A stretch of DNA of 64,000 bases from Sipunculus nudus (taxonomy: Eukaryota > Annelida > Sipuncula > Golfingiida > Sipunculidae), in contig CM049319.1 in the NCBI GenBank assembly GCA_026874595.1, positions 5,546,601-5,610,600 on the forward strand. Direction: 5' to 3'. The notes under the pieces were generated by a model. It had not been told where the DNA came from, did not search any database, and saw nothing but the letters and a program-made list of their open reading frames with translations. A program made the translations under genes and the position numbers. This document shows positions 9,066 through 53,056 of this stretch, piece after piece. Position 1 is the first letter of the stretch, and the number at the start of each line of letters is the position of its first letter.

Positions 9066-9223
9066 TAAATTTGATTATTGTAGGAATGTTCCCCTGTTGA
9101 ATGCTCCTCTGGATGGAACATACCTGGCCACATGCCCGTCATGTGACCACCAGTTCAAGTTCAAGGCCACACCAACACCCAGAACTAGTGTCTCATTCAC
9201 CATCAATGGGACGCAGTATGAAG
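9066..9223 (+). CDS. Oxidase exon 1 (first visible): CPSC extension and start of 2Fe-2S domain
   Basis: Reads from [10 protein letters not shown] through CPSCDHQF to FTINGTQYE, the last being the standard first beta strand of the family. The acceptor after CCCTCACAG (9065) has the better pyrimidine tract; a second AG at 9083 would drop six residues in the same frame. There is no in-frame Met, so a start exon lies upstream. The best-fitting 3' end is 9223 with a GC donor (AAG|GCAGGT), giving Val with the next exon; a GT donor at 9228 is the alternative. Confidence 0.8.
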
Positions 9224-12200
9224 GCAGGTGACACTTTGATTTTATCTAGCAATTTTTATACACAGTATAATTTGCCATAAAATCATAATTCCCATAAATA
9301 CATCACATTTTGCAGTAATTCTATTGTTTCAAAATAAACAGAACTTGAACAGCAACTTTTCCTTAACAAGTTTCAGATACTTAAAAATGAACTGAAAATT
9401 AATATTTTTTTTTCATAAATGCAAATTGCTCATGAGTAAAAATTTTGATTTTAAGAAGCAATTTTATTTGGAGGGTGTCCATATTACTTGAATTTTCAGT
9501 GAAGAACAGCCTTGATATCAACATGAAACTGAATGAATACATCAGAGATGTAGCGGGCTTGAAAGGGACAAAGGTCATGTGTAGAGAAGGAGGCTGTGGC
9601 TGCTGTGTTGTCATGGTAACCAGACAGAACCCATTGCTGGGAAAAGAAGAAAGTGTAGCAATCAATTCAGTAAGTACCAGTTCCTTTAACCTGTTATTTC
9701 AGAAGTCTAGAAAATTTATATTATCAGTTCTGCAGACATAGTTGCAGCATTATGCAATGTCTTGTCATGACTAACTCTCCTATGAAATTTAGTTATCTGT
9801 CCATTTATCTGTTTTCAAGGTAATCATTAGTCAAAGTACAAAGCAATATATCTTTTCAATGGCAATGATGATAGTCAGTCTTCAAACTTCCCCCATTCTT
9901 GCACTTGAAATTTGAGTGGCACTTGACACACATATCAGCCAAGGTCAAGCATTATAGTCACTTGGTGTTGAAAATTGCACATGCAAGTCCTACCTCAGGC
10001 ATCACTATTTTTTTCAGTGTTAAGAAGTTAATATACCCTCTAAGTGCCTGAGATTTGAAAAAAAAAACATACAAAAAAACCCTAAAATGTCTGAAATTTC
10101 AGTGTCAGCTGTAAGGAGTGTACCTTAAGGCCATCCTTAAAAAGTTCTGTGTTGGGGCTAACCCGGCCGGTCGTGATTTTTGGCTGCGGCTGGAATTTTT
10201 TTTGACATATCTGCAAATTAATATTTTTATATGATCTGCCGCAAGCACCTGGGCCCGTAAAAATCTGCCTTCATGTGCTAGAAAAATAGTCCTTCTATTA
10301 CATTTTTAGATGCACTTTATTTCCATAATGAAAGGTATTACCCAACGTCGCCGATCGTTTGAGCCCTAACAATTAGTCAGGTTGTGCCTATATATATACA
10401 CGTGGAACGATCGCTACACTCGTGCGCGAGAGTAGAAAAACTGCCGGGAAACCGCCATCAAATTTCGTTGTTCTGGCGAAACAGGCTGAAAAAAAATATT
10501 GAGCAATTAGAAATGGTTCTTATTTGATTTCAAATAAAGCGGAAGCTTACCGCTGTCGCATTAACTGATTAAATGAAAGTTCTCTCGACATTCATACTGT
10601 CAACTGACCAATGTTGGCATTTAAACCATGTGACACGTTGATTTGCATAAACACGTGCCTGGCCCACGCAAACGTTCTTGTGATTGGCGGAGCGGTCACG
10701 CGTCATAGCCAGAGAGCCAATAAGAGGTCCGTAGTAAAAGTTCACCCCATATGACTTCATTCATCACTATTTTGGCGGGAAAATGTTCGCTGACATCGTG
10801 TCGCTTACGCTGGTTATAATTTTTCAGCAACACTCACGGTGGCACCGTGAGTAGGCCTATATCAAGCAAATGAAGCGGGCCTATTTAATTGAATCTGCAA
10901 CTGACGATGTGTAACGCACGATCTCCACAAATCAGATGTTTGGTATTACAAGAATTGCGTGATTTCGTCAGTTCTGTGGCGATCATGACAGGGTTTTGCG
11001 AGGTGTCTGACGCATCGTTTCTACCGGCCACAGCTGATCAGAACAGGCATAACATATAAGAAACTGTATTTTTTTTATGTTTCTTTTTAACTGCCTTTGT
11101 AAATTTATTTCATTTTATTAATAGCTTTTATAATAAACAGATATTTCCTGACCGTACGGCATTTCTTGTTTAGACGTAGACGAGATAGAGATCAACATTG
11201 CTCCCTCAGTCATTAATTACAGAAAAATACTAGAATATCAGCAAAAGCTGACAAAAGCCCCCAGCCAAAAGAGCAGTATTTATGGGTGGTAACAGTAACA
11301 AGTATTCATGTAATATTTGTTCTCACATGGATGTATATCTGTACATATGTCTTTTGTTCAAGTTGTGAATTGGAACTAGAGAGGTATGAACTTTGTAAGT
11401 CTGGCCCCAGTCTTTGTGAGTCATGCAGCACTTTCGAGATCATCAAGGCCAATGACCATTCCATATTCCAAAACAATCCATCCAGTGGTTCCTTAGAAAT
11501 AAGCTCCTAAGTTTTTTAGCTCAGCTGACTGAAAGTCATCTGAGCTATAGCGATCACTCTTTGTCCGTCGTCCGTCTGTCCGTCCGTCTGTCTGTCCGTC
11601 TGTCCGTCTGTCCGTCCGTTAACCAGGCACAAATCGTAACCGCTGGACCTAGAACCTTGTAACTTGGGATTCTGAGAGGTCCATAAAAAATCTCCTTGGA
11701 AACCAGAAATTAGGTCTCTGTTACCCATATCCTTCGATCTATGTGGCCCCAAAGTACCCCCCAGAAAAGTCAAAAATTTCATACAAAAACTTCAATATCT
11801 CATTAACTACTTGACTGATGGTCATGATTTTTGGCATACATATTGATCATGAGATGTTACATCACTTCCTGCAGACTGGTGGCGCCACCTGTATTTTTCG
11901 ATTTTTTAAGAATTTTTTTCTCTATTTTTGAGACCTTTAAAAATGTGAACATCTGTTAACAAGGCACAAATCATAAAGACTGGACTTAGAATCTTAATTC
12001 TTGACACACTGAGAGGTCCATGAAAAATCTCCTTGGAAACCAAAAATTAGGTCTCTGTTACCCATATCCTTCGAGCTATGGGGCCATAAAGTGCCCCCCA
12101 GAATAGTAAAAAATTTCATACAAAAACTTCAATATTTCAATAACTACATCTTTGATGGTCTTCATTTTTGGCATACATATTGATCATGAGATGTTCGATC

Positions 12201-15200
12201 AGTTCCTGCAGACTGGTGGCGTCACCTGTACTGTTTGATTTTTTACGATTTTTTCCTCTATTTTTGAGACCTTTGAGGATGCTGTCATCTGTTAGCATGG
12301 CACAAATCGTAACGACTGGACCTAGAATCTTCATTTTCGACACACTGAGGGACCTATGAAAAGTCTCCATGGAAACCAGAAATTAGGTCTCTGTTACCCA
12401 TATCCTTCGAGCTATGGGGCCCAAAATTACCCCCCAGAATAGTCAAAAATTTCATACAAAAACTTCAATATCTCATTAACTACATCACTGATGGTCATGA
12501 TTTTCGACATACATATTGATCATGAGATGTTTCATCAGTTTTTGCAGACTGGTGGCGCCACATGTATTTTTCAATGTTCACGAATTGTTTTCTCCATTTT
12601 TGAGACCTTTAAGGATGTAGTTATCTGTCAACAGGGTACAAATCGTAACGACTGGACCTAGAATCTTCGTTCTTGACACACAGGGAGACCCATGATAAGT
12701 CTCCATGGAAACCTGAAATTTGGTCTCTGTTACCCATATCCTTTGAGCTATGGCACTCCAAAGTACAGCTCAGAATAATGGAAAATTTGATACAAAAGCT
12801 TAAGTATCTGAACAACTAATGCAGAGATAACCATAATTGTTTGCATGGATATTGATCATGGAGTGTTTCATAAGTTTCTGCAGACTGGTGGCACCACCTG
12901 TATTTGTTCGGTTTTTTTTACGAAATTTTTCCTCTATTTTTGAGACCTTTAAAGATATGAACATCTGTTAACAGGGCACAAATCATAAAAACTGGACCAA
13001 GAATCTTCATTCATGACACACAGGGAGACCCATGAAAAGTCTCCATGGAAACTTGAAATTAGGTCTCTGTTACCCATATTCTTTAAGCTGTATGGGTCCA
13101 AAATACCCCCCCCCCCCAGAATAATGGAAAATTTGATACAAAAACTGCAGTATTTCAATAACTACAACACTGATGGTCATGATTTTCGGCATACATATTG
13201 ATCATGAGCTGTTCCATCAGTTTCTGCAGACTGGGTGTGCCACCTCTATTTTTTTTCAAATTTTTACGAATTTTTTTCTTTTTTTTGAGACCTTTAAAGA
13301 TGTGGTTATCTGTCAACAGGGTACAAATCGCAACAACTGGACCTAGAATCTTCATTCTTGTCATGCAAGGAGGCCCATGAAAGGTGCCTGTGGAAACTTG
13401 AAATTAGGTCTCTGTTACCCATATCCTTCAAGCTATAGGACTCCGAAGTATCCCTCAGAATAATGGACAATTTGATACAAAAACTGAAGTATCTGAACAA
13501 CTAATGCAGAGATCACCATGATTTTTTGCATGGATATTGACCATTAAGTGTTTTTATTAGTTTCTGCAGACTGGTGGAGCCACCTGTATTTTTGTATCCG
13601 CCAAAACAAAGTTTTGCGGATACTATGTTTTTGACCGAGTTCCTCCACCGCGGCGGCGTTCGTTTCCAGAGAGCTCCTCGGAGACTAATGGACCGATTTT
13701 TCCCAAACTTACACCTATTATCAGGTCACATGTGAACTGGTGCCTAACCAATTTGCGTTGCCCTCTGACCTTTCCTCTCTATCCAGTGTCCATTTGTGGG
13801 TCTGTTTCCACTCATAAACCCTCATATCTCGGGAACCGTTTGACCGATCAGGAAATAAAATTGATACAAATGTAGCCCTTGGATTGCTTTATAACATACA
13901 CAAAAAATGGTGGCGCCACCTGTAACCATGTTTGCACAGTGTCCATCTGTTCATCTGCCTTGGGTTAAAATCACTCATATCTCTGCAGTGAATTGACTAA
14001 TTCACCTGAAATTTGTCATGCGTATACATCCAGGATAGCTTTCTTGATTTTATGACAGGTGGCGCCACCTACATTCACGTTCACGCTGATGACATCCAAG
14101 CTTATATCTTGGGAACCGTTTGACTGATCAGGAAATAAAATTTATACAAATGTAGCCCTTTGATAGCTCTGTAACATACACAAAAAATGGTGGCGCCACC
14201 TGTAACAATGTTTGCACAGCGTCTGTCAGTTAGTCTGCCGTGGCCTAAAATCACTCATTTCTCTGTAGTGGTACGACATAACTGCCTAAAATTTTGCAGG
14301 TTTATACATCGTGGACAGCTTTCTTGATTTTATGACAGGTGGTGCCACCTACATTCTAGTTAACGCTGCACACATCCAAGCTCATATCTCAGGAACCATT
14401 TGACCGATTGGGCCAAAATTGTGCATGTGTTTAGATCTCACATATGTCTTTATCATACACAAAACTGGAGGGGTTACCTGCAAAGATTTTTGCACAGTGT
14501 TTGTCTGCCATGGGCAAAAATCGCTCATTTACATGTAGTGGTTTGACTTTTCTGCCTAAAATTTTGCAGGTGTATACAACTTGGACAGCTTTCTGGATTT
14601 GTGGTAGGTGGTACAACCTACATACACATTTAGGCTGCAGACATCCATGCTAATATGCAACATACCTCACTCTATTTCCCCTTGCCACTCAATCCATGCC
14701 TCACTATCCGATTTTGGCAGATACATGTAGTCACTTGTTGGTTACCCGTATTCTAGTTTTAAAAGTTTACACATTTTTCTCTATTTTTGAGATATATAAA
14801 TACAGACTAAATCTTGGCCTGTTGGTTAATCTGTTTGATGCTTCAGTTGAATGGGTATATACTACCATTCTAATGATAAAATTTCTTTTTGCGAATCTCT
14901 TCCCAGTCAGCTGAGCGTCATGACCCATGGGTCACTTGTTCTATTATAAGCTCTGTGACCTTGGGTCATCCATCTTGGAACTTGACAGAGATTTTGTTGA
15001 TATGTATCAGCACCAAAGAAATGAAATTTCTGTGTTGAATACTTTTGGAGATATCCTCCTCACATGGTAAATGTTAACACTCGCCGGTTATTTTCTATAA
15101 TTCGCTCTAAAACGTTGAGAAATAAGTCAAGGTCACCCATCTTCGAACTTGACCAAGATTTTGTTTGTATATACATCAACACCGAAGAGATAAAATTCCT

Positions 15201-18200
15201 AATCAGGGTACCGACATCCAATATATGGTTTCATCTTTCAAAAAGTACAGTTTTACATATATTTTTATAAACATTTTATATATTCTACAACCTTATTAGG
15301 CATTGACTATTACTAAAGAGTTCATTTATTACCGTCCTTCTTAATTATACCTCTTCACTGCACTCATTCCTACAATTCTGGCACTCGCATACAACACAAA
15401 ATAAAATTGTCTGCAAATTCATGTGAGATCCAGAACAAGGCTTACAGGCCTAATGCGAACCTGTGCAATGGGATATACATCAGTTATAATGCTTCCATGA
15501 TAACATGCTTGACCATTATTGGAAAAGTACTTGATTACTTTTCAAATACGTGAATGTTTGACATGTACATGTTCAAAGCATGTACTAAAACATTTTAAAC
15601 CCAAGTACAGGATTTTAAGCCTGTAATAAAACACAAAATCTGTTCAGAGATACCTTGTTGTGCATGTTTCAATGGTATCGAGGCAAGGAATGAATGGAGT
15701 ACGGGTATGTTTTTTGACATAAACCTCGCATATGCTAATATCCGGTAAAAAGAGATGTAGTAAACTCTAGAACCTCCTTTAAAAAAAATATTTTTTTCCT
15801 CCCTACCTGATGACTTTTTTTGGACCAATGTTAGCCCCAACACAGAAATTTTTAAGGATGGCCTAATCATAATATATCATGTGGCCTTGAATATTAGAAA
15901 TAACAACACATTGCAGGTCACAAAATTAACCTTTTTTATCTACCTGAAATGGGGTCCGGCACCTAAAAAAATTACCTGTTGACTGATCTATGATTACAGT
16001 GTTTGAAAAGCTGTATCTTAGCAGAAGGATCAAGAGTGACATATTTCATGATATGACTGTCATAAAAGCTCAACGGATCAATTAAATGTGAATTACTTAG
16101 CAGAGCCCTGTTAATAACAGTTAAGTGATGAGGAGAGAACTGTGTGCTGTCAATAAAAGATGCTTTGCTGTCATAAAATGATTGTTTTAAATTCCTAAAC
16201 CTCCTTTGGAAAATTATATGCACATCTTTTTGACAAGTCATATGTAATTGTATCCTCCAACACAAAGTCTTGCAGATACTATGTTTTTGACCGGGTTCAG
16301 CCACCACTGCCGCATTCGTTTCCGGAATAGAACTCCGAGACCACTAGACAGATTTTTCTGAAACTTAACATGATTATCGGGTCACATGTGAACAGGTGCC
16401 AAAATATTTTGTGTTGACCTCTGACCTTTCCTTTCTCCAGTGCATCCATCTGTGCGTCTGTTTTGACACATTAACTCACTTATCTTCAGGCTCCTTTGAC
16501 CAATCAGGAAAACAATTTTTGCACAAATGGAGCGCTTGGATAGCTTTATAAAATACATAAAAAATGGTGGCACCACCTGCAACCATTTTTGCACAGCATC
16601 CATCTGTTCATCTGCCTGGGGATAAAATCACTCATATCTCTGCAGTGAATGGATTTATCCACCTGAAATTTTGCATGTGTATTCATCCATGATAGCTTTC
16701 TTGATTTTCTGACAGGTGGCACCACCTACATTCACATTCAGGCTGCAGACATCCAGGCTTATATCTCAGGACTGGTTCGATGTATCATCCTGAAATTTTG
16801 CATGTGTATAGATCTCACATAGCTCTTTATCATAGGCAAAACGTGGTGACCTACCTGCAACAATTTTTGCACAGTGTCCGTCTATTTGTCTGCCGTGGGA
16901 TAAAATCACTCATATCTCAACAGTGGTTTGACATATCTGCCTAAAATTTTACATGTGTATACATCTTTGATAGCTTTCTCGATTTTGTGGCAGGTGGCGC
17001 CACCTACTTTCGCCTTCATGCTGCAGATATCCAGGCTTATATTTCAGGACTGGTTTGACACATCCTCCGAAAATTTTGCATGTGTATAGATCTCACATTG
17101 CTCTTTATCAAATGCAAAACTGGTGACGCCATCTGCAACCATTATTGTGCAGCCTCAGTCTGTTTGTCTGCTGTGGGATAAAATTACTCATATCTCAGCA
17201 GTGGTTTGACTTACCTGTCTAAAATTTTGCAATTGTATACAACTTGGAAACTTTCTGGATTTTGTGGCAGATGGCATCATCTACTTACACATTTCGGCTG
17301 CAGACATCCATGCTAATATGCAACACACCTCTCTCTATTTCCCGTTGCCACTCAATTCATACCTCACTTTACCCGTCCATTCTGGTTTGTATGGCTATGA
17401 TAACTAAGCAGGAATTGGATTGCTTTTCATGAAGATCACAATGCTTATGATTCATCAATAACATATCACAGCTCTGTTAGAGTATCTTCAAAATCTAGCA
17501 TATTTATTGAGGTCGGAGGTCATCCGGCATCTTTGATCTGTTGTTGCATTATATTATCAGGACTTAGTATTTCTATGAATCATGCTGTGAATGTTTGCTA
17601 CTAAAATATCTCAGTTTTAATACAAACAAAATTGTTTTTCCTCTGGTTTTTATTTATGAGGTTAATTTCTTGCGATTTTTACATTTTCCATGTTTTGTGA
17701 GGGTTCCATTTTTGCACTCATTCCATATAATATTTTAAAGGAAAATATCCATTATTATATTAATTATGTGACAATTAACAATTTGACAAGTCCCCTAGTT
17801 AACGTCAAATGAGTAAAATCATCCTTGGGGTTGCTGATAATATTACAAAACTGATATCATTTATAACATGAAGCATTTGCAGTTAGACTTATGGCGCTAT
17901 ACTGATATGGATAACCTGCATGTGATGCAAATGATGATAAAGAATATACAGTTTAAATGCTACTCCAACTTTGGAGGCGTCTGATATGTGAAGGTTTTAT
18001 TTTTGCATTACTTTACCTTTCACAAATATTGCAAATTTGAAACCCTTGCAAACAAAAAGTCAACCAAAGTTGTTAATGAATTCATAGGACTTATTACAGA
18101 CATACCCTGCACTCCTGCAATTCTTGTTTAAACTTGTGATTTTGTGTGTCCTTTCAGTGCCTGTGCCCCTTGTATAGCTGTGATGGGTGGAAGATCACAA

Positions 18201-21200
18201 CCACAGAGGGCATCGGGAACAAAACACAAGGATTCCATCCAGTCCAGGAGAAGCTGGCAGAGCATAACGGTAGCCAGTGTGGTTACTGTAGTCCTGGGAT
18301 GGTTATGAACATGTACAGGTAGGAGCCAGTGTGGTTACTGTAGTCCTGGCATGGTTATGGCATGTACAGGTAGGAGCCAGTGTGGTTACTGTAGTCCTGG
18401 GATGGTTATGAACATGTACAGGTAGGAGCCAGTGTGGTTACTGTAGTCCTGGCATGGTTATGGCATGTACAGGTAGGAGCCAGTGTGGTTACTGTAGTCC
18501 TGGCATGGTTATTACGTGTACAGGTAGGAGCCAGTAGGTTACTGTAGTCCTGGCTTGGTTATTACATATACAGGTCATGTGGTCTCAATAACATTTCTTT
18601 AGTATGAATGATATTCAGTAGAGCACTTACCTCTGCCAAGGGAAAATTATCCGTCTGAATCCTTTGCATTATTTAAGGCACTTTCATGGACCATGTGCCC
18701 ATCTCACCTCAAAATTATTAAGAAATATTTTAGTATTTCTTGCATAATTCTGCTGAAAATCAAACCAAGAAACAGTCAGGGGTAACGCATGACCTCCTCA
18801 GAGGAGATAGTAACACAAATCAAATGTCTTAAGTTCAGGCATCTTATATATGGACAATTTAATTTAAACCTAAATTCTAATAAATAACTTTTTTTTTCTG
18901 AGAGTGTCTTGTACAAATTAAGAAATGTTAATAAATGTTGGTTTTTCAAGATGGTTTGAGTGCAGTTTTTCAAAGAACCAACTGTTCACATTATAACTTG
19001 ATAATGGTTTCAGCTCAGCCCACACAAGAGGTCACACTGATGCAAGTTTGTGGCGTAGTCTTAATGATTATGTAGTTCATCAGGGGAGAGTGGGTCAGCT
19101 GTGATTTCCACAACGTTCTTATTTGGTTCCAGTTATCTCCAGGAACACCCTCACCCCACCAAGCAGGACATTGACAATGCTTTCGATGGAAACATCTGCC
19201 GATGCACCGGATACCGTGCCATCCTTGACAGCATGCAGGAGTTTGTACCAACAGCAGATATTGAGGTATCACATAGAAAATGATGTAGGTTAAGTATAGA
19301 ATAATAATTTAGAAGAAGACATAATACAACATTGGTGACAACATACACTCCTTTGTGAAAAAGTTTTTTTGGTATGATTTAAAAAAAAGATAATAATTAA
19401 ATTTGAAAATATTAATTAAAAATTTAAAGAATTTGGCAAAGTCTATTTATTTTTTCAAGGATTTGGGAAGAAAGCATTGCCATGGCAACTGTAGTGGATC
19501 GTTTTGTCAGAGAGCATGTGCAAAGCCTGATCCAGTCCACATGGTGTTCAGCACAGCACAGTGGTACAAGCCTGCAGACCTCCCAGGGCTGTACAAGGTC
19601 CTCCAACAATACCAGAATCAGAAATACAGTCTGGTGGTAGGAGGGACTGGAATAGGTAAGAAAGAAATACAGTCTGGTGGTTTGAGGGACTGCAATATGT
19701 AAGACATAAATACAGTCTGGTGGAATAGTTAAGTGAGAAATGAGTAAAAGAGAAACATAAACTGATTGTGGGATATGAAATAAGTTATAGAGTGAAATGT
19801 AGTCAGGTTGTTGGATGGACTGAAATTAGAAAGAGAGACCGGGAGGTTCTGTAATGTTAAAAAAGAAATAAAGTTTGGTATTGGGAGGCACTTGAATAGG
19901 TGAAGGTTCAATACCTTGTTGACCTGGAATAAATAGAATTTTAAATGCAAATCTGGCTGAAGGCCAAGTCAGCCATCTCTAAAAGAGAACCCTGCTTGAC
20001 AAACTAGAATTTTTAATTCTGTTCAGCAATAAAATATAAAAGAGCCTTAGTTTGTACAACTAGGAAACATTAATACATGTCAAGAAAATGCATAATTCAA
20101 AAAGATTGACCGATATATTTAGTTTACAAAAGATGGCTTGAATCATTGTAAATTTGGAGGTTGATTGAGAATGTGTATTGTTGGTTCACAGTTAGCCTAA
20201 TGCAACAGCAACACCTTTTCTGATGCTGGGATGAGGAGTTAATTGGAAATGCCTTCTTTAATATTATGCCGCTAAATCTTTTAAGTTTTTCAATATTCAT
20301 TTATCAGGTGGGGATAATGTGGCCTTGATTGACATCAAAGGTGTAGCAGAGCTCTACAAAGTTCAGGTAAGAATTAATTGTTAATAAAATTAAATGTTAT
20401 TTTAGGATTGATGAGAGCACATTTTATTAAGATAACATGGTTATCATATAATAAAAAAATAGTAAGATGTACATTAGATATGATATATATATATATTGTT
20501 CTGTATATATCAGTTCTTTTGTTCTGATAATTCCAAAGGTTTGCAGTAGATGGACGGAAAAATTAGGATTATGCAAAATTAAGACAAAATTTTTAAAATA
20601 TTTGTTAAAGGAATGTTACCATGGGTTACTTTTTCTCCTGCAGCTGCAGTCAGATCCCATCACTATTGGTGCTAATGTGACCTTGAGTGACCTTGCAGGA
20701 CTGCTGGATGAAGCGTCACTGAGATCAGGTTACAATTATTGTACAGAGCTCTCTAAACATCTGAGGAAGGTCGCAAACAGGCCAGTCAGAAATGTAATTT
20801 ATCTTTTTATATATTTATATATATTATTATTATTATATAAAGCTAAATAATATACATATATTTCAGTGTTAATGTGAAAAGTTTATTAATGTGTATATTT
20901 GTACAAATATGATACTTAATTCTGATCCAGTTAAAAGGTATAAATCAGTAAATATATGTTACTCATGTCATAATCTAATTGTGATGCATGTGTACCATCT
21001 TATTATTTATAAATTTAAGCTCATTTTCAGGGAAATAAGAACAAGGGGAGTAGGGAATGGAATATGCAGAATGTCTTGTATTCTCTCCATTTTAACCCGG
21101 GATTATGCCTCAACACCAACTGATAGATCATGTTGTCAATCATCACGTCCCAAAACATCACTTATAACTATATTGCAGGCAAACTGAATTTTATTGTAAG

Positions 21201-24200
21201 CATTTGATTTTGGGATTAATTATTTCATAAAGGTTGGCTGCTGGGCTGGTAATCTGGTGTGGAAACATGGTGACCCTGGCTTCCCCAGTGATGTGTTCAC
21301 TGTCATGGAAACTGTTGGTGCGACAGTAGCCCTTTGTAAGTAAATCTGTGTCTGTATGTGCATTGTTGGCATCCTGGCTCAGAAGACATTGAATGTAAAG
21401 CCCCAGCTCTGTATAAAAATGTAAAAATGCTAAATTTTGTTATAATGTTACTTGAAATGAATAATTCTGCTGAAATTGAAATAATTAACAGGTTTAAATA
21501 CTTTTTTCTCCACTCTTCATCTTCTAGACTGTGGTTAAGACACTTTAAAGACACAATTCGTCAGAGTTTTATGCATGTGTATGTTTAAGAGCTGAAAATT
21601 ACTAAATATTTAATTGTGACTAAATTGAAGAAAAAAGGAAACAAAAGCCCTGCCTTTTTGACAGAAAATCCTCAAATAAATTACTTCTAACTCAAATCCA
21701 CAAAAATTACATGCTTTCAATTATCATTTATCTTTATTCTTAAGTGCAGATTATGAATATGTATGAAGTGTGTACAATAGAACCTGTCCGAAAGACTTTA
21801 ATAAGACCAACTGTGTATTAAGCCAAACCTGGAGTGAATCAAAAGCTTTCCCACTGATTATAACTGACCTGTCTTATATGACCACTTTGAAATTAGACAG
21901 CTTCTGGCTAGTCTCACATGTGGTCTTATAACACAGGTATTACTGTATATCATAATTTACAGATTTCTAATAATTTTTCCCAGCATCCAGCAATAGTACT
22001 CAGCATGAGATGTCATTGGAACAGTTCTTGACCTTTGACCTTGATCAGCATGTCATTCTGAATTTAAAACTCCGCCCTCTGTCCAGCCAACACATTGTGA
22101 GGACCTACAAGGTCATGCCAAGGACACAGGTAGTTTTTTTCAGTCCGATCAGTGAGACAAATTACTAAATTAATATTACTGTACTTCAGTGTACAGTTAT
22201 ATTTGTGGCAAACTTTATCTGATTGATTTAATATTTATTAAAAGTGTAGGGACAGAGATGTGTTTTCTTTAGTCCTTTCAAGGTCAAGTAATAAATTTGA
22301 CATGAAAAGAAACCTATGATATGATTAAATATACATTTTTTGTTTAAGAAAAATAATAAGTTCTACTTTTTAATGTTCTACCTCTCAATCAATGAATACA
22401 GAGCTATGGAAATTACATTTACACCTAATCAATAAGAATGGGAAAAGTCTCCCTTCTGATATGAGTTATCAAAATTATCAGAAGAATTTCTTCTGAAATT
22501 GAAATAATTATACATAAGGAGAATTGTATGATTATTCTTTGTGTTCATACAAGTATTTTGGTTTTCAGAATGCCTTGGCCTATGTCAATGCTGGTTTCTG
22601 CATGAAGGTTGATAAGACTGCAGGGTACAAAGTTTTTGAACAGCCCTCGGTTGTGTTTGGTGGAATAAGCCCTAATTTTGTAAGATATTTTTGTTGTTAT
22701 TATTGTATAAAATTTTGATTTTATAGTGTGCTTTTATATATGGATCATAATAACAGGAATTTGTCAAAAATTTTTTTTTGTAAGACAGTATCTTTCCTTC
22801 AGCATTACCTGTTAAAAATCTTGCATGGTTTTGTTTGTCTTTTATTAAATTTGTCTGTTTTCATGAAACTGAATAGGATGTCAAGGAGAAATGATATTTC
22901 GATTGGGGTGGGAGGGAGGAGGAAAACCAAGTTGGGACAGTAACATACATTAGTAATGCTGGTGTGATTTTTGTAGTTTTTAGCCCTCAGCCCTTAGGCT
23001 GATGGGCTATTTTCGTCACCCAAGCTGTCCGTCCGTCCGTCTGTCTGTCCGTCCGTCTGTCCGGCCGGCGTCCGTTAACTTTTACCTTGTGAGCGGGATA
23101 TCTTGAAAAGGATTCGCCGTCAGAATTTCATTTCCTCGGTAAAGATGTATATCGACAAAATCTCGGTCAAGTTCGAAGATGGGTGACCTTGACCTATTTT
23201 TCTACATTTTAGAGCTGATTATAGAAAAACACTTAGATGCTTATTACTCAGGAACCATTTGGTGGATTTTCACAAAACTTACTATGATTATTGGGACTGA
23301 TAGTCTGTACCTGCTGCACAAGTTTGGTGGCGCCACCTACAATTTCTGATTTTTAATGAATTTTTATCGGATTTTTCAACTTTGGGCTTGTGATTGGGAT
23401 ATCTCTAAAAGAATTCATCGTAGGAATTTTTTTTTTTTCGGTGAAGATGGATATTGACAAAATGTCGATCAAGTTCGAAGCTGGGTGACCTTGACCTATT
23501 TTTCTATGTTTTGGAGCTAATTATAGAAAAAAATTTCGAAGCTTATTTCTCTGGAACCATTGGCTGGATTCTCACAATACTTACTATGATTGAAGGGACT
23601 GATAGTCTGTAACTACTGCACAAGTTTGGGGGCACCACCTGCAATTTCTGATTTTTAATGAATTTTTCTTGGATTTTTCAATTTTGGCCTTGTGAGCAGA
23701 ATATCTCTAAAAGTATTCACAATAGGAATTTTATTTCTTTGGTGAAGATGTATATCGACAAAATCTTGGTCAAGTTCGAAGATTGGTGACCTTGACCTAC
23801 TTTTCAAGGTCACAGAGCTTATAATAGAATAAAACTTAGAAGCTTATTTTTCAGGAAGCATTTGGTGGATTGTTATGAATCATGGTACATACCTCTCCAT
23901 TTTAAAATTATAACTCAGACATGTTCAGATATACATCCATGTGAGAACAGATATTTAGTACTTTTTACTGTTACCACCTCTAAACACTGTTCTTTTGGCT
24001 GAGGGCTTTTGTCAGCTTCTGCTGATATTCTAGTTGTATTTAATTATGTAATCCAGTGGTAAAATACAGGAATACAAACCATAAATAGAGTATAATCTGA
24101 GCATGTATAGGCTTAATTTACAACCAATAATAGTGTCTTATTTGTGTATACCTGTTTACCTGTGACTACTTTATTGCAGGTACATGCTTCCAAAACAGAG

Positions 24201-27200
24201 GGTTTCCTGATGGGTAAAAGCCTGCTGAATAATCAGGTGCTACAAGGTATTAGAAATAAGTGAAACATTTCAGACCCTCCACATAATACATTCCTGAAAT
24301 ATTCTCTACAAATTATTTTATAATTTGCCTTGTTATAATTTCCATGACCAGGTGTTACAAGGTATTAGAAATAAGTGAAACATTTCAGACCCTTCACATA
24401 ATACATTTCTGATATATTCTCTACAAATCATTTTATTATTTGCCTTGTTTAAATTTCCATGACAGAATGAATATATACATATCTCAGGCAGTACTTCCTA
24501 GCTATTAATAATGCACAAGTATAGTAACATCATATATTAATCATATGGATGATAAGTCTTAATGAAACAGTTAATGGTTTATTTTATCTTATGTCATGAC
24601 CCTAATATCTTTTAAAATAATTATCTTTAAAATAAATTCTAATATTGTGCACCAAGCCAGATAACTGTACCCTGTTCATTGTACATAACAAAATCAATAC
24701 ATTATAAACATGCACTCCTGAACATTTTTAGCTCAGCTGACTTTCAGTCATGCTGGGCTATAGCGATGGGTCTTTGTCCGTCGTCCTTCCCTCTGTCCGT
24801 CCAGCCGGCCGTCCGGCCGGCCGTCGGTCCGTTAGCAGGGCACAAATCGTAACCGTAGGGGCTAGGGCCATGAACCCTATGCAGTCTTAGAGGTTATAAA
24901 AAGATCTCCTTGCAAACCTGAAATTAGGTCACTGCGACCTATATTCTCGAAGTTATGGGGTGTGTTTGCACCCCCCAGAAATAACTCTTTGAGACAAAAT
25001 TTTCATCCCAAACCTTCCATCTTTCACATACAGCTCACCTACCAACAGGGGAAGAACCATAATTTTTTTTAGGTCAAAAGGTCAAAGGTCAAGGTCACAG
25101 GAGCCTTTTCTTTGAAAAGCCTGTGGATGCATTTTAAGCCAACCCTTTCATCCCAATTCTTTGATTTTTTCACATATAGCTCACCTACTAAGTTGGAGAA
25201 GAATCCTATAGATTTTGAGGTCACAAGGTCAAAGGTCAGGGTCACAGGATCCACTTCTTTGAAAAGGTTGTGGACACATTTCAAGCTAGACTTTTCATTC
25301 CAAACCTTCCAGCACTGATATTGCTTCTCTGCCAACAGGGGAAAAGACCTGTTGATTTTGAGGTCAAAGGTCAAGTTCACAGCACCCACTTCTTGCGTGG
25401 AGTCATTTTCAGGCAAACTTTTCAATCTGTACCTTCCATCTGTCTTATATGGCTTACCTACCAATAAGGGAAGAAGCCTATTGATGTTGAGGTCAAAAAG
25501 TCTAAGGTCAAGGTCACAATATTTAATTGTTCTAAATGCTTGTGAGCATATTTCAAGTGTAACTGTTCAACCCAAACCTTCAGTCTTTCACATATGCCAC
25601 ATCTATGCATCACTCAGTTTGACTCAAACTTCATATTTATGGGTCTTTTTGCTTGAATAAATAACTTATTGATTTTGGGGTAAGCTGGTCAGCAGGTTAA
25701 AGGTTGCAGGTCAAAGTTATTCACCCATTGGTTGCCAAGTAATTACACCAGATTTAAGTGGTTAGTAGTTACCCATCATTTAGAAAGAATCCAGTTGATA
25801 TATGGGCAAAAGGCCAAGGTCATAGGTCAGGGATGTTCACAATTACTTATTTTAAAGACCATCTCTATTTTTCTTGTATATATAACCATCCCACTCCAGC
25901 TGGTACATCTCCCTGTGTGGCTGTAATTGTGAGTGACACTGGTGACATATGACTCCCTTTTGTATCAGCCTATTAAGTGATAAGGCTCAGTGATAAGTAC
26001 CTCGTTATTTCATAACAAAAACACTGTTGTCAGAATGCTTCAGCCAGGCATTAAGACTATGAGAGTATAGTATTAAGGTTTAGCTACTGATTTTTAAGAT
26101 GATGGGAACATTTTGCAGTTTATTTTATGGAATCCTAGCAATAAACTTAGTTTCCTAGATATCTGAATATTTTAATATATATCACCACATATAAAAGCAA
26201 GTGTTTGTTCTCATAATATGTGGATGTGTACCTTGATTTAGGATGGCTTTTTGTTTTATTTCAAGACTCTTAGTCATGCTTTCTGCATTTCTTTTCTTTC
26301 AGGTTTGGCAGTTTACCTACCCTGCTGACCCCATTGAAAAGCAGACTGATAATAAAAAATATTGGACTTACACTTTTTACAATTGCATATCTATAAATCT
26401 GATATGAGGGCCTGGACATGCCTTTTGAATTATTTTGGGCATTCATTACTGGATAATTTGCCCCAAGTTTGGTCTCCTATTGGAGAATGTGGGATATCAA
26501 ATGACATACTTGTCAGAAATCCATTATGTCTGCCAGTTAGCCACCTTAGAAATTCTTTCTTCAGTGCAGTTTCAGTAATTTTTCTTTAATGTTTGGTCCG
26601 ATTTAGAGAATGTTTGTTGTCTGATTTCAGACTTGTCAGAAGTCCAATATGGCCACCAGGCAACCATCTTTTAATTCCTTTTGATCATATTATCTCAAGA
26701 ACAGTTAAAGTGAATGCAGTTGGATGTATATTTATGTAATCTTGTAAAGGATTGGGTCAAATATTTCTGAATAAATATTACCATCATTTATAAAAGTGCA
26801 TTACAGGTGGCTTGTATTGAATAAAAATTCATACAGAAGCACCTGTTTCTCAATAATTCTTGCATGTATTTCCTTGATTTTTGCTATATATTTTGATCTT
26901 ATATTTGCCCTTTGTGGTGTTCCTTTGAGAATGACAGGTTTCAAGCAAGCTGTTGGAATAGTTCCTGCTTAACAATCATGCATTTTCCTCAGACCATCAA
27001 TTCACTGTGTTTTAACCAGACATAGGTGATGTATATTTCTGTTGTCATAGAAAATTTTCAACAAATTGGCAAATTGGTTCTTCAAAATTTGACTGGAAGT
27101 TGTGAATCTCAGTCCATGATGTCACAGGTCATGCTTGGCAGCTGAGCGTCATGACCCATGGGTCACTTGTTTAGATTAATCATATCAATATTCAACATTT

Positions 27201-30200
27201 AATCTTTTAAATAACAGTATTTTTTTCAAAACTTGAGAAAGGATACATGACGTTTTACAAAATAACATCATCCACTGTTTTAAAAATTTCATATCATCCT
27301 AGTCTTTACTTAAAAGATCTGGCTACCATGTACCTTTAAATATGTCGACTCAGTTTCTGTATACATTTAAACTCTTTTCTCAGCTGTCATCATAACATTT
27401 GAAGAAATTCTAGTTATTTGAGTGGTGTGAAGTGGATCAGCCTTTCTACTTGTATTTTCCAGAGGCCTTGCATATACTGAGTGATGAGATCAAGCCATCC
27501 AGTGAGCCATCAGAGGCTAGCCCCACCTACAGGAAGAATTTGGCACTATCGCTCTTTTACAAAGTAATGAAAGAATGACATATAGATATCCATTGTATAA
27601 TGTTCTTGAACATGTGATAGGAATTTAAACTTCTGAATGAATGTTACCCCAAAAATAAAAATTAATTTCTTTTATAACTTTCAGTTACCTAGACTTTTTA
27701 AGTTACAGATTTATCCAAAATGTGATCTTTTTAAGGCAGACTGACAGACAGTAAAGAGAGATTAAAGAAAAAATGAACCTGCATCTTGAATGTTTTGATA
27801 GAGGTAGATTTCAAGAGATCCATTTTAGGAAATAACAATAGCTTCCTGGGGGGAGAATTGTTAATTTTGAATAATAGGTCAGGCTTAGTGATCAGTTAAC
27901 AATAAAATTATGACCGACTATCATCAGCATATATTAATTTAGCCACTCTGATATTTGTTAGTTATTATCTCTTCACACTCCAGATTTCTTTTTCAGTTTG
28001 TGCTGAATGTTTGTGGAGATGCTCTTCCATCTAGACTCAAAAGTGGAGGAACCATACTAGAGCACCCTCTGTCTTCAGGCACTGAAACTTATGATACAGA
28101 CCATTCAAAGTGGCCCCTGACAGAGCCTATGCCTAAACTTGCTGCTAAACTTCAGGTGGATAGCTCAACCAAATATATGTAAAAACAGTTAACTGCAGTA
28201 CTATGACCTTTTGGCTTCTGTGAATTTTACTGAATTATGAGATTATTATCATTATTATTATTATTATTATTAGTAGTAGTAGTTGTAGTATTGACATATT
28301 TCTAATTTCTTTGTATTATCTTTATCATTATTTTGATAACCTAATAATTGTATCCGCCAAAACGAAGTTTTGCGGATACTATGTTTTTGACCGGGTTCCG
28401 CCGCCGCCGCCGCCACCGCGTTCGTTTCCGGAGAACTCCTCTGAGACTACTGGACAGATTTTTCCGAAACTTACACAAATTATCGGGTCACATGTGAACT
28501 GGTGCCTAACCAAGTGACCTTGACCTCTGACCTTTCGTCTTTGCCCAGCGTCCGTTTGTGCGTCTGTTTACACACATAAACCCATATATCTCGGGAACCG
28601 TTTGACCGATCCGGAAAATTTTTTTACACAAATGTAGCCCTGGGATAGCTTTATAACATACACAACAAAAGGTGGCGCCACCTGCAACCATGTTTGCACA
28701 GTTTCCATCTGTTCATCTGCCTGGGGTTAAAATCACTCATATCTCTGCAGTGGTTTGACTAATTCACCTAAAATTTGGCATGCATATACATCCTAGATAG
28801 CTTTCTCAATTTTATGACAGGTGGCGCCACCTACATTCACGTTAACGCTCCACACATAAACCCATATATCTCGGGAACTGTTTGACCGATCCGGAAAAAA
28901 ATTTTACACAAATGTAGCCCTGGGATAGCTTTATAACATACACAACAAAAGGTGGCGCCACCTGCAACCATGTTTGCACGGTGTCCATTTGTTCATCTGC
29001 CTGGGGTTAAAATCACTCATATCTCTGCAGTGGTTTGACTAATTCACCTATAAATCGGCATGCATATACATCCTAGATAGCTTTCTTGATTTTATGACAG
29101 GTGGCGCCACCTACATTCACGTTAACGCTCCACACATAAACCCATATATCTCGGGAACCGTTTGACCGATCCGGAAAAAAATTTTACACAAATGTAGCCC
29201 TGGGATAGCTTTATAACATACACAACAAAAGATGGCGCCACCTGCAACCATGTTTGCACAGTGTCCATTTGTTCATCTGCCTGGGGTTAAAATCACTCAT
29301 ATCTCTGCAATGGTTTGACTAATTCACCTAAAATTCCGCATGCGTATACATCCTAGATAGCTTCCTTGATTTTATGACAGGTGGCGCCACCTACATTCAT
29401 GTTAACGCTGCAGACATCCAAGCTCATATCTCGGGAACCGTTTGACCGATCCGGAAAAAAATTTTACACAAATGTAGCCCTGGGATAGCTTTATAACATA
29501 CACAACAAAAGGTGGCGCCACCTGCAACCATGTTTGCACAGTGTCCATCTGTTTGTCTGCTGTGGGATAAAATCACTCATATCTCTGCAGTGGTTTGACT
29601 TTTCCACTTGAAATTTTGCATGTGTATATATCTTGGATAGTTTCTCGTTCAAATAACAGGTGGCGCCACCTACAATCATGTTTATGTGGCAGAGATCCAA
29701 TACTAATATTTTACATATGTAACTCTATATCCCCTTGCCACTCAATCCATGCCTCACTTCACCCGTCCTTCTCTGATTTTGGCGGATACACGTAGTCGCT
29801 TGTCGACTACCCGTATTCTAGTTATTTTTATTATTATCATTAGTAGTAAAATTATTAAATTCCTATTAGTGTTATGTTTATAATCATTGTTATCATCATT
29901 ATTATTACCAGTACATGTCACATTGCTGAATAAACTTCCCTTACATGATGCAACATGACACAAAGATGCTACAGACTTTCAATTTTTCTTACTAAATTAA
30001 TAAAAAAAATTGTGTTCAATAAAACCTGTTTAATTTAAATAGAAGTGATTTTTACTAATGTAGTTAATGTAATTATTTCAGGCTTCAGGTGAGGCACAAT
30101 ATGTGAATGATATCCCAGCATTCCCTGGTGAACTGTATGCAGCATTCGTTGTTACCACTGTGGGTAATGCACAGATACAGAGTATCGACCCTTCCTCAGC

Positions 30201-33200
30201 ACTGGTGAGTGATCTAACATGCACCCCTTACAGTTCCATGTTTAATTATATTCAGTTGTGTTTGATATTTTTTGTTGCATATTTTTATGCCCCCCCCCCC
30301 CCAGAGGAGACACTGTTTTCAGTGCCTCTGTTGTATGTAGGATATCTTGCCAATGCCATGACTTTTGAAGAGCTACTTATCAACTTCCATTTGAAACAAA
30401 GTTTTCCTACCAAAATCTCTGACAAGTTCGAAAAATGGTTACCTGGACCTTCATCTTCAAGGTCAAATCCGCCAAAATGAAAAATTTGTTTGGCCCCATA
30501 ACTTTTGAAGTATTTCACATTTGGTCCTAAAATTTGGTATAACTTTAGTACGCTTGTTTCAATTAGGTTCTTGGGCAAGTTAAAAAAACGGTGACCCTGA
30601 CCAGGATCTTCAAGGTCAAATTAGCCAAATTATAGTAATTGTCTTATGAACACAATAACTTATGAAGTATTGTGTATTTTCCCCTCAATAATTCACAAAA
30701 TGTGTTTCCACTGAGTTATCAGAATACTATGGGTACTGGTGACCTAGACCTTGATCGTCAATGTCAAATCTACACAATTCTAGGATTATTGTAACCCCCA
30801 TAACTTTGGAGGGCTTTATATTCTCAAGAAGTTTGAAACACAAATTGTTTCTACCAAAATCTTGGAGGAGATTGAAAACTCATGATCTTGACCTTCATCT
30901 TTGAGGTCAGATCTGCTAAAATGTAAAATTTTTGTGAACCCCATGACTTTTTAGGTATTTCACATTTTGTCTTCAGCTTTGGTATATGACTTGTTTCAAT
31001 GAAATCCTTGGATAAGTTCAAAATCCAGCAACTTTGACCGTGATCTTCAAGGTCAGATCTGTGCAATTCTAGGATTAATGTGACCACCATAACTTTGGAA
31101 GTACTGAAGATTTTTCCTTCAATTGTTCTTACTGCCAAAATCTTGGAGGAATGACCTTGATCTTCAAGGTCAGATATGCTCAATTCTAGTTTCATTGTTT
31201 TGAGATAGTGCATCTTTTCACCCCTAATGTTTCGGGATGTCCCATGTGTGGGGAGACATTTATATTTTAGGAGATAACAATATCTTTTGCTTGTAATTAT
31301 ATATTTGGTGGTTTACCCAAGGCCACTTTTGTAAATATCTGTTTTGTGTATCATTTGATGAATATATCAAACACTTTAAATAGTTATTATTTATTTTATG
31401 TTTTTAAAAGAAGATATCAGTTACTATACCTGATATCTGTACTCCAGTATCTTTCAAGCATACCTGATCTTGTTAAATTGATTTAGTATGAATACTAAAT
31501 GGTAAGAATTTGTATCCCTTTGTGCAAAATTCTATTGTCATTATGATTATTGATTTATTTGTTCTCTATCTTTTCTTGTATTTTGTTAAGAATATACCAG
31601 ATACTGTTGTGTTAATATAATTCGAATGTAACACAGTTTCAACAACCATTTGATAATGATGACGAGTGCATGATAAATAATAGTATATTTTATATCACGG
31701 TTCGCCTGGTATATGGTGTTATAAAATTGTGTCAGAATATGCCTGGGTAACGTGATGTTATATCATGTAGGGTATGCCTGGAGTAGTCAAGTTCCTGTCA
31801 GCTGCAGACATCCCTGTCGGGGGAGTGAACAACTCTCAGCCACCTCCTAATGGTCCTGAAGAGGTAACAGGGTTATGAATTATAAATTAATGAAATCTGC
31901 TAACTATGTTTGTGATATCACATATTTATAAAGTCCATAATGTGAGTAAAACTTTCAACTCAGGGATTGACATTGTTTGTAGCTGAAGGTACAGTCATTG
32001 TCAGCAGTCTCGCATGCTTGTTAATAACTAGAACTTCACAGATTTATGAACACTTGTTGTGGTCATATGACAACCCCTGAGTCATTGTCAAGAAAGCCAG
32101 AGTGCTGACGATGACAGTGTGATATGTGGAACAATGAACAATGATGAACAATATGTATGTCCCTGAGTTCAGAGTTTTACTTACATTTCAGTAAAACTTT
32201 ATTACCATTACCAGCTCTAGGACCAATATACTGTGGTTGCCTTTTTGTTCGCGAGGGTTTTAATTTTGCGATATTCGTGTATGGGAAATAATCGCGAAAA
32301 TGAAACCCTCGGGGAATAATTGGCCAATGGATTACGTCCTTCTTATTTAATGTAGCCAATATTTGTATGGGAATAGATTAGAACAATGAGAATTGTTATA
32401 ACAAGGTATGCAGGTATAGGGAAAACGTTCCCCTTAATTTGAACTTAACTACCTGTGCTTTGTGTTCGGGCCCATCGTTATATGAGAAAAATATCACAAA
32501 CTCATGACTTATTCTCATTTTATATCACACATAGGTATGGCTTTACCAAATATTTGGGTTCTGGTGAGATAGCGAAAATGAAACCCTCGCGAAACATAAG
32601 AAATTGAAAAATTGTGAAATTTCAGCCTTGCGAATATGAAGCCAACCACAGTAATTGGTTCCAGTATGTTGTACTTCCAATGAACAGCAGTCTTTTGAAA
32701 GGTAACCTCATCTTAGCTGGGTTTATGGATGAAAAAGGTTAAAGTTTTTTGAGCCCCCTATTATTTTGTCCATTATGGCTAGGAAAATAAGGAATCATTT
32801 GCTGGACACACTTGGATTTGGTGAAGCAGAATTTGTTTGTTTAGATGTTTAAATACTGTGTATTTCTTATTTCTTTAATTCACCTTATATATGTTTTATA
32901 TTTTAAAACTGAAAGCTTAGTTCTTTTGACACAGTTAAATATTTGTTCATGTGTCAGTTCCATTGAAAGGCATTAGGCCTACTACCCGTCAGCTATCAGT
33001 ATTTGGACTGGCCCATTAATAGGCCACACCTATTGTAAAGTAGGCTGGCCAACAGCCAGGAATGTTCAGGCCTGACCACTCTTCTGCGTGCACCTGAATG
33101 ATGCAGACGTGGGCCACTGGTCAGCACTAGGTTTAGTCATTTAGACGTGTGAAGGGGCTAAAGGATAATCGACATAAGACGAAGTTTATCACGTGTAACT

Positions 33201-36200
33201 ATCAGACCCGCAGTATAATATAAAGGACAGATATTTCAGCAACTTGGTAATTTTAACATAAAATTCTGTGTTGTTTTCTATTATCTGTGGTAAAAATCCT
33301 ACACCATCTCCTTATGTCAGCAGTCTTCAAAAGATGTTACTGCTTGCCACTAGGTGGAGCTAATGGTGTGAATAATTTGCCCCACTTATTACACAGATCC
33401 ACTGCCCTTAATCTGATTTCTCCTTTTCCTTCCTGTTAGATGAGGATTGCCTCACCAAACTATTATAATGGCAAGTAATAACATCCCTCGGGGTTGGGAA
33501 ATTGTAGGTTTTAAGAAATCATTTATGTAGTTCAGCTCTGCCACTCTTCTGCAACTTTTCAAAGTTCTTGAATATTATTTTCCCTGCTGTCTTCTTGGTT
33601 GTAGCTTTTCTGCAGTGGTCAAGTCTTGTACGCTGGTCAGGCTGTTGGACTGATCATTGCAGGTCTGTAACTTTCCAGTAGTTAATGACTGACCAGTTTG
33701 CAGTCTTGATTAATATTTCTTTTAATGTCAAAAGTTTTTTTTATGTTATGCTGATTGTGCCAGAGATTTGTCTCATATACTTATCTAAATATCTTCCCCC
33801 TTTAACTTTTTCTCTGTTTATATTTATATTATTTCATTGGAGAACAAATAAGGTATTTTAAAGATATAACACTTTAAAGAGATGCCCAATAATTTTAATT
33901 ATATACAAACATAGAGGAATCAAAAGTTGTCATCATGTAAGAGTTCATCAGCATGTTGCATGAAACTGCATAGTAGTAAACATGTCTGGCAAAATTGTTC
34001 TCTGTATTTGTATAACTATACAGTTCTGGTTACATACCATAGAACACTCTAGCAGTTGTTTCTTGCCGAAAAAATGATAAAATATAGAGTGAAGAAGAAA
34101 CCAAGATAATAAATTCTTAAGTCTTATTCCTTAGATAGAATGATATATATATATATGTGTATGCATGTACATATGTTGTTGATATGTGTGTGTATGCATG
34201 TATATATGTTGTTGATATGTGTGTGTATATATATGTGTTGTTACTTCCAGATAGTCAGCTCCATGCTAATACAGCAGCTCAGGCGGTTAAGGTGACCTAC
34301 ACAAATGTCCAACGACCTGTCCTTGACCTGAGGGAGGCCGTGGTGAAGAAAGCGTTCTTCCCTGGTACCTCCACAAACCTCGTTAAAGGGAACGCTGAAG
34401 GTCAGGTTTAGTCATTATACATGAAATTAAAATATTTTAAATTATACTGTTCATGTTGAGTAATTGTAGAATTTTAGGGTGACTGAAACTTTGTCAAAAC
34501 ACATCATCTTGTCAGAGTTCATAACTTCATCATATAATTATTGTTCATAGTCTTCATGGTCTTATACCAAGCTGCTTTATGTAAGAGAGGGCATGTTTAT
34601 CAGTGATAGCGGATCATTCTATTAAGATTTGAAAGCTGTCCAAGTTGTATTCATATGCAAAATTTTAGGCAGAAAAGTCAAACCACTACTTGTATATGAG
34701 TGATTTTATCCCACAGCAAACAAACAGAAGGACTTGTGCAAAAATGGTGGCAGGTGGCTCGACCAATTTTGTGTATGATTAAGAGCTATGTGAGATCTAT
34801 ACACATGCAAAATTTCAGGAGGATATGTCCTGAGTCATATAAGCCTGAATGTCTGCAGCGTTAACGTAAATGTAGGTGGCGTCACCTGTCAAAAAAATTG
34901 AGAAAGCTATCCAAGATGTATAAACACGCAAAATTTTAGGCAGATAAGTCAAACCACTACAGAGATATGAGTGATTTTAGCCCACAGCAGACAAACAGAC
35001 AGACGCTGTGCAAAAATGGTTGCAGGTGGCCCATCTGATTTTTATGCCCCGGCCACTTTGTTTTACCCATGTCCGTCCTTCCGTCATTCTGTCATTCCGA
35101 AATCAAACACATGTATGGACTTTTTTTCACAATGCCTGCAGATTTTGGCCTGATTTTTGGTGTGTGGGCAGACAATGACCAGTTACAGATCGAGTTCGCG
35201 TTTCGTCCCAGTTGACCTACTTTTGACCGTTTTACGGCTCCTAAACTTAGAAAATTTCATGAAAAATAGAAATTTTCATGACAAATACATATGTATGGAC
35301 TTTTTTTCACAAAGCCTGCAGATTTTGGCCTGATTTTTGGTGTGTGGGCAGATAATGACCAGTTACAGATCGAGTTCACGTTTCGTCCCAGTTGACCTAC
35401 TTTTGACCGTTTTACGGCTCCTTAACTTAGAAAAATCATGAAAAATAGACATTTTCATGACAAATACACATGTACAGACTTTTTTTCCCAATGCCTGCAG
35501 ATATTGGCCTGATATTGGTGTGTGGTCAGATAATGACCAGTTACAGATTGAGTTGGCGTTTTGTCATAGTTGACCTACATTTGATTGTTTTACGGCTCCT
35601 AAACAGAAAATTTCATGAAAAATATAAATTTTCATGACAAATGTACATGTACAGCCGTTTTTAGCCCTCAGCTCATAGGCTGATGGGCTATTGTAGTCAC
35701 CCAAGCTGTCCGTCCGTCTGTCTGTCCGTCTGGCGTCCGTCCGTCCGCATCTGATAACTTTTACCTTGTGAGCGGGATATCTCTAAAAGGATTCATCGTT
35801 GGAAATTTATATCATCAGTGAATATGTATTTGATAAAATCTCAGTAAGGTTTGAAGATGGGTGACCTTGACCCATTTTTCTACATTTTAGAGCTGATTAT
35901 AGAAAAACACTCGGAAGCTTATATCTCAGGAACCAATGTAAGGATTTTCACAAAACTTACTATGATCATTGGGACTGATAGTCTGTACGTGATGCACAAT
36001 TTTGGTAGCACCACCTACAATTTCTGATTTTTTAATGAATTTTTATCAGATTTTTCAATGTTGGCCTTTTGTGCAGGATATCTCCAAAGGTATTCAACAC
36101 AGGAACTTCATTTCTTCAGTGCTAATGCATGATATTTACAAAATCTTGGTCAAGTTCAAAGATGGGTGATATAAGTTTGGATGTCTGCAGCGTAACCTAG

Positions 36201-53014: not shown

Positions 53015-53056
<42 letters not shown>

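Follow-up and report, generated by a model that had tools for sequence, protein, structure and literature searches.

Tandem duplication of a segment carrying AG/GT is a described route to intron gain, exemplified by ATP2A1, while in fission yeast the introns of SPOG_01682 and SOCG_00815 consist of several tandem copies, with 24-nt repeats, and in potato a duplication in the RdRp gene spans an intron-exon boundary (PMC4974935; PMC3443670; PMC3629103). Internal gene duplication is frequent and is cited, in the relevant passages of PMC4974935 and PMC3443670, as indirect evidence for intron gain (Gao and Lynch, 2009). As that study is described in PMC4974935, the duplicated segments include entire introns, whereas the locus presented here repeats part of an exon and one splice site, many times over. 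With the intron-gain cases, in the passages that describe them, the locus shares the tandem duplication of an AG/GT segment. It differs in that the intron pre-existed and only grew, and in that units, which can number about 40, come from the donor side or, among XDH-type genes, from the acceptor side, at many unrelated loci of one genome.

Two further systems offer a comparison. Intronic minisatellites are built of head-to-tail units of tens of bases and of higher-order dimers. The array described here, located at the end of exon 3 of its host gene, is similar in unit size and dimers but has an exon edge as its founder, and its first copy still codes for protein. Recursive splicing sites consist of juxtaposed AG/GT, which is also present at each unit junction of the array. 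However, a clear pyrimidine run is lacking, the intron is short and many such sites follow one another. In titles and abstract openings, exon-edge arrays were not found as a genome-wide class, and passages of PMC1636649 are unrelated to them. The exon 3 units are probably neutral products of tandem duplication seeded on the exon end, and belong to just such a class.

The exon 3 array and its host gene

The window is a stretch of 64,000 nt of the Sipunculus nudus contig CM049319.1, and the assembly searched comprises 1.43 Gb in 153 contigs. The window contains a mollusc-like gene of the aldehyde oxidase/xanthine dehydrogenase (AOX/XDH) kind, identified by tblastn, by spliced alignment to the chiton protein P0007 and by AOX/XDH structures. 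Its features around exon 3 are as follows.

9082..54006, plus strand: AOX/XDH-like gene, about 33 coding exons
18158..18318, plus strand: exon 3, opening in phase 0 and closing in phase 2, with the CGYC codons
18274..18318, plus strand: copied end of exon 3, 45 nt
18319..19132, plus strand: intron 3 with the array, 814 nt, acceptor TTCCAG/TTATCT (spliced alignment)
18319..18369, plus strand: unit 1, 51 nt, beginning at the donor, identical in sequence to unit 3
18370..18421, plus strand: unit 2, 52 nt, core without a mismatch to the exon end (45/45)
18422..18472, plus strand: unit 3, 51 nt, identical in sequence to unit 1
18473..18523, plus strand: unit 4, 51 nt, 41/45 against the exon end
18524..18573, plus strand: unit 5, 50 nt, 38/45 against the exon end, followed by GTCATG

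Exon matches from tblastn and spliced alignment are spread along the whole length of AOX/XDH proteins, and solved AOX/XDH structures match the N-terminal part of the product; by this exon-level similarity the gene is assigned to the AOX/XDH family. The alignment to P0007 comprises 35 pieces, some of them doubtful, and leaves the start and stop of the gene unfixed. At 27564-27983 the aligner places a stop where relatives have no exon, and this piece is taken as misjoined. Among the 120 proteins listed, full-length homologs reach at most 57% identity, the best being from a chiton, abalones, a brachiopod and bivalves, and none of those listed for the full-length peptide is close. The CGYC part of exon 3 presumably belongs to the second [2Fe-2S] cluster. 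Other introns of the gene contain satellite-like arrays (11618-13593, 13821-14656, 16560-17319, 23077-23871 and 28571-29682; periods near 280, 302 and 336 bp) and a perfect 48-bp tandem duplication (37149-37244). Elsewhere in the assembly, G000:C116:54360-54518 matches exon 3 within an uninterrupted frame of 1301 codons, and represents an intronless copy or a foreign contig.

The original prediction of five tandem copies of the exon 3 end and its donor in the following intron is borne out both by the units and by Tandem Repeats Finder (TRF). The five intronic units lie head to tail at 18319-18573, and all of them measure 50-52 bp, begin with GTAGGAG and end with ACAG, as had been claimed. Spliced protein alignment places the exon 3 donor at 18318/18319, exactly where the first unit starts. 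TRF reports an array of head-to-tail units of tens of bases, as in minisatellites, at 18272-18575 (period 51, 5.9 copies, 93% matches, score 513), with a second solution of period 103 (3.0 copies, 95% matches, score 538); these scores are far above chance. Compared with the exon end (18274-18318), the cores of units 1 to 5 agree at 42, 45, 42, 41 and 38 of 45 positions. The duplicated segment is, as proposed, an exon segment carrying AG/GT. The exon part does recur, but at 45-47 nt it is slightly shorter than the 49 bases first given.

The unit types follow one another as B, A, B, C and C-prime, and the greatest divergence from the exon end is found in unit 5, the farthest from the exon. The 129 nt at 18272-18400 are repeated unchanged at a shift of 103 nt downstream, which indicates a recent dimer duplication that took in the exon end along with unit 1. 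Behind unit 5 the sequence runs ACAG/GTCATG, so the repeated donor is absent after the last unit, and either GTAGGAG or GTCATG may have served as the donor before the array arose. An assembly artefact might be suspected from a copy number taken from a single assembly and from a 103-nt dimer identical over 129 nt. However, the units differ among themselves and similar arrays occur at many unrelated loci in the assembly, which makes this explanation extremely improbable.

Age of intron 3 and mirror arrays in paralogs

The exon 3 peptide has 70 matches in its own genome. Seven of these, AOX-type paralogs on contig C2, span the whole exon with bounds identical to those of exon 3, and all seven share the position of the exon end and the donor. 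Exon-end copies are absent from the 685-709 nt fetched past each of the seven donors, where the last 45 exon nt find a best match of 19-22 of 45 positions, equivalent to no copy. Over the same stretches, TRF detects no array after the donor in six of the seven. The exception, L030, contains in the same intron a 51-nt array of 9 copies (443-899), starting 249 nt after the donor. Its relationship to the exon 3 array was considered and rejected, as it resembles the exon end of L030 and the exon 3 unit of the window (contig C14) no more than shuffles do, and by this comparison the equal period would have arisen by chance.

Due to the presence of the same exon end and donor, without copies, in all seven C2 paralogs, intron 3 must be older than its array. 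In addition, the real acceptor (19132/19133) lies about 560 nt past the array, so that the two splice sites do not both come from the duplicated segment. These two observations speak against the original suggestion that the intron was gained by duplication of an exon segment carrying AGGT. A related possibility is that the units are, or will become, separate small introns. All of them run from GT to AG, and the crude acceptor score of their ends (1.1-2.9) overlaps that of the weakest real acceptors of the gene (mean 3.6, lowest 0.5). Such multiplication is nevertheless very improbable, given that the intron predates the array, that the unit ends lack a clear pyrimidine run and that removal of a single unit would leave the remaining units and a stop in the message. 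Moreover, 50-52 nt is very short for an animal intron.

The XDH-type paralogs (C3, C8) show a different exon layout, in which the exon with the CGFC codons begins just before these codons. Nine such loci were examined (L002, L003, L024 and L032-L037), and in seven of them TRF arrays of 89-90-nt units, each composed of the acceptor and the exon start, lie upstream of the true exon. In L036 one copy is visible in the sequence and no TRF array is found within 671 nt, and in L035 no acceptor-side copy is seen. L024 (G000:C3:20703300-20707750) has about 40 units of 89-90 nt upstream of its XDH-type exon; AG precedes 36 of 40 scored units, counting the true exon as one. Most L024 copies read CGFY or CGFF where the exon has CGFC. 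One C8 gene carries a further acceptor-side array of 66-nt units that reaches the preceding exon, and its neighbour has similar units about 3 kb upstream of the corresponding exon. At least three XDH-type genes form a tandem cluster on the minus strand of G000:C8:17200001-17360000. The CGYC/CGFC codons are thus arrayed on opposite sides, the donor side in the AOX type and the acceptor side in the XDH type, and the two kinds of array are taken as independent origins.

Exon-edge arrays across the window and the genome

Exon 3 is not the only exon of the gene with a repeated donor. TRF identifies two more cases:

19620..19723, plus strand: second array across a donor, in which the donor and the final 36 nt of exon 5 (19460-19655) recur in 2.4 copies at period 43
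24234..24463, plus strand: third duplication across a donor, in which the final 13 nt of the exon at 24180-24246, its donor and 102 nt of intron recur in 2 copies at period 115

After merging, the window has 11 TRF arrays of 20-150 bp, of which three reach a donor and none an acceptor. Random placement predicts 0.6 donor-touching arrays (P=0.016), although the test is not clean, as one of the three is the original finding.

Beyond the window, the assembly was searched for CAGGTAAGT, 30-60 bases and CAGGTAAGT again, which yielded 605 matches, and for a control made of the same letters backwards, which yielded 240. The comparison draws on 100 listed places for each pattern and is restricted to the stretch that both sets reach, 256.7 Mb made up of C1, C2 and the first 47.3 Mb of C3. 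There the matches listed were read as 20 distinct paired-donor loci against 9 control loci, 7 of the latter with a TRF array. TRF arrays are present at all 20 paired-donor loci. Exons were recognized by a score trained on the host gene, whose cut-off of 5 passes 92.9% of 28 true exons and 1.7% of 115 donor-like non-exon sites. Eight loci reach it (L044, L046, L047, L049, L050, L051, L053 and L054). Another, L048, scores 4.8, yet ABCC2 and MRP1 are matched by its exon with a best E of 1.4e-6, and in L039 the exon-end array is on the opposite strand. In all, exon-end arrays are supported at 10 of the 20 loci, including ABCC-, HADH- and TOM20-like genes. Seven loci show no exon. Three fall in neither group: L041 scores 2.4, L040 scores -11.2, and in L038 the acceptor lies beyond the stretch fetched.

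A second scan of both strands, in which 19 of 22 calls on the plus strand of the window end at a true donor, flags nine of the 10 supported loci; in L053 it places the exon beside the array and not inside it. It flags neither L041 nor L040. In L038, L048 and L049 some of its calls lie within the array or on the wrong strand, indicating that the scan produces false positives within arrays. Pfam matches lie above cut-off for L051 (3HCDH_N) and L054 (MAS20) and below it for L048 (ABC_membrane), L044 (V-set) and L047 (PH), while L046, L050, L049, L053 and L039 have no match. The exon end contributes 14-58 nt to the repeat over the 10 supported loci, the weakest exon-repeat matches being those of L044 (14 nt, shift 116) and L053 (83% identity). 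By hand count over these 10 loci and L041, unit length is divisible by three in four of 11 (L047, 30; L048 and L049, 42; L053, 48), the others being 50 (L039, L054), 44 (L041), 56 (L044), 28 (L046), 58 (L050) and 53 (L051); this is as chance would give. Two of these arrays are long. In L048 (G000:C2:8512200-8514250) the end and donor of an ABCC-like transmembrane exon are repeated about 39 times at 42 nt, and at G000:C2:37218027-37223264, which starts in L051, an HADH-like exon end is repeated over about 5 kb, mostly in 53-nt units.

All 16 loci of the control list were fetched, as 17 stretches. Four of the 16 have no TRF array, and an exon call in L058 was discounted since it lies inside the array. 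One, L070, is itself an exon-end array. Its gene is TPR-like, by a Pfam match above cut-off, and 9 nt of the exon belong to the unit.

These counts bear on whether exon edges, and donors especially, are mutational hotspots for tandem duplication, for example because transcription or splicing promotes it. This idea is rather unlikely. It draws on the three of 11 window arrays at donors (with the original finding included), on the one in 16 loci chosen by a non-donor word that is also an exon-end array, and on the supported exon ends at half of the paired-donor loci, set against a rough guess that 1/6 to 1/3 of CAGGTAAGT words are real donors. However, for the 256.7 Mb span Markov models (264 kb) predict a background of about 1750-2280 for CAGGTAAGT and of 2120-2670 for the control word, and the resulting rates are alike, at about 0.3-0.5% per word, for paired-donor loci without a supported exon (7-10 loci, about 2000 words) and for control loci (7-9 loci, about 2400 words). 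If, as a guess, 1-2% of some 200,000-250,000 introns start with CAG/GTAAGT, exon ends would be hit at a rate several times that of the background; the enrichment would vanish if the span holds about 3000 real CAG/GTAAGT donors. In its fullest form, likewise rather unlikely, the idea holds that exon end and splice site are copied into the intron again and again, that decaying exon-edge arrays make up a measurable share of intron length and that the mechanism depends on transcription or splicing and not on local sequence alone.

Copied splice sites and a proposed growth of introns

The original prediction offered a ladder of competing donors as an alternative. In line with this, all five donors in the exon 3 array have one and the same sequence and, on a crude matrix, each scores 4.54 against a gene mean of 2.81, five units being too few for a test of constraint. 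Directly beyond the first donor a TAG is in frame, so the use of any later donor would introduce a premature stop. Through this arrangement the ladder might tune expression, with part of the transcripts decaying, and early in-frame stops are also found in the first unit of L041, L044, L047, L050 and L053. A premature stop is not general, however, as the frame beyond the exon stays open for 125 codons in L048 and 71 codons in L049, and none of the seven C2 paralogs has exon-end copies.

Donor conservation was assessed in 85 units from six comparable arrays elsewhere in the genome. Relative to the unit consensus, 65 of 765 positions (8.5%) are changed in the copied donors, as against 245 of 2971 (8.2%) elsewhere in the unit (P=0.83), and special conservation of the copied donors in these arrays is rejected. 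Coding use of the units is likewise rejected for the two arrays analyzed by codon position, where differences show no bias over 40 units each, with the true exon included (104/114/119 in L024; 64/75/70 in L048). By difference counts there is therefore no sign of selection on the copied donors of the six arrays or on the codons of L024 and L048. Of the predicted ladder, the equal-scoring donors stand, but a conserved one is made unlikely by the immediate TAG and by the divergence of copied donors in the six other arrays; regulation of expression by this means is unlikely too. Misuse of a later donor in L048 or L049 could possibly add 14-residue repeats to the protein.

Neutral duplication seeded on the exon end accounts for these observations as follows. 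A short segment, consisting of the exon end, the donor and a few intron bases, would have been duplicated head to tail, and the array would then have been enlarged by slippage or unequal exchange, the latest visible step being the 103-nt dimer, in which even the exon end is included. Only one exon copy is intact, and as it still ends at the first donor, the repeats would be removed together with the intron. The proposed class would include donor-side cases (three exons in the host gene, and elsewhere the 10 supported loci) and acceptor-side cases (the XDH-type paralogs), in which duplications are presumably tolerated because one intact exon edge remains. The tests of neutrality are drawn from arrays other than that of exon 3, and the five identical donors of the latter, as expected of active donors, count against it. 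Neutrality also leaves as an unpredicted coincidence the arraying of the same codons on opposite sides in AOX-type and XDH-type genes, and the donor enrichment in the window hints at something beyond random placement.

If duplications across exon edges are tolerated, introns would lengthen with exon-derived repeats. Should the sample reflect how common the arrays are, these would provide a route for introns to grow from the adjoining exons and a steady stock of copied splice sites for new donors, acceptors or protein repeats. They would equally be a trap for gene annotation. The genome would then serve as a natural experiment on how splicing selects the right site among many identical ones.
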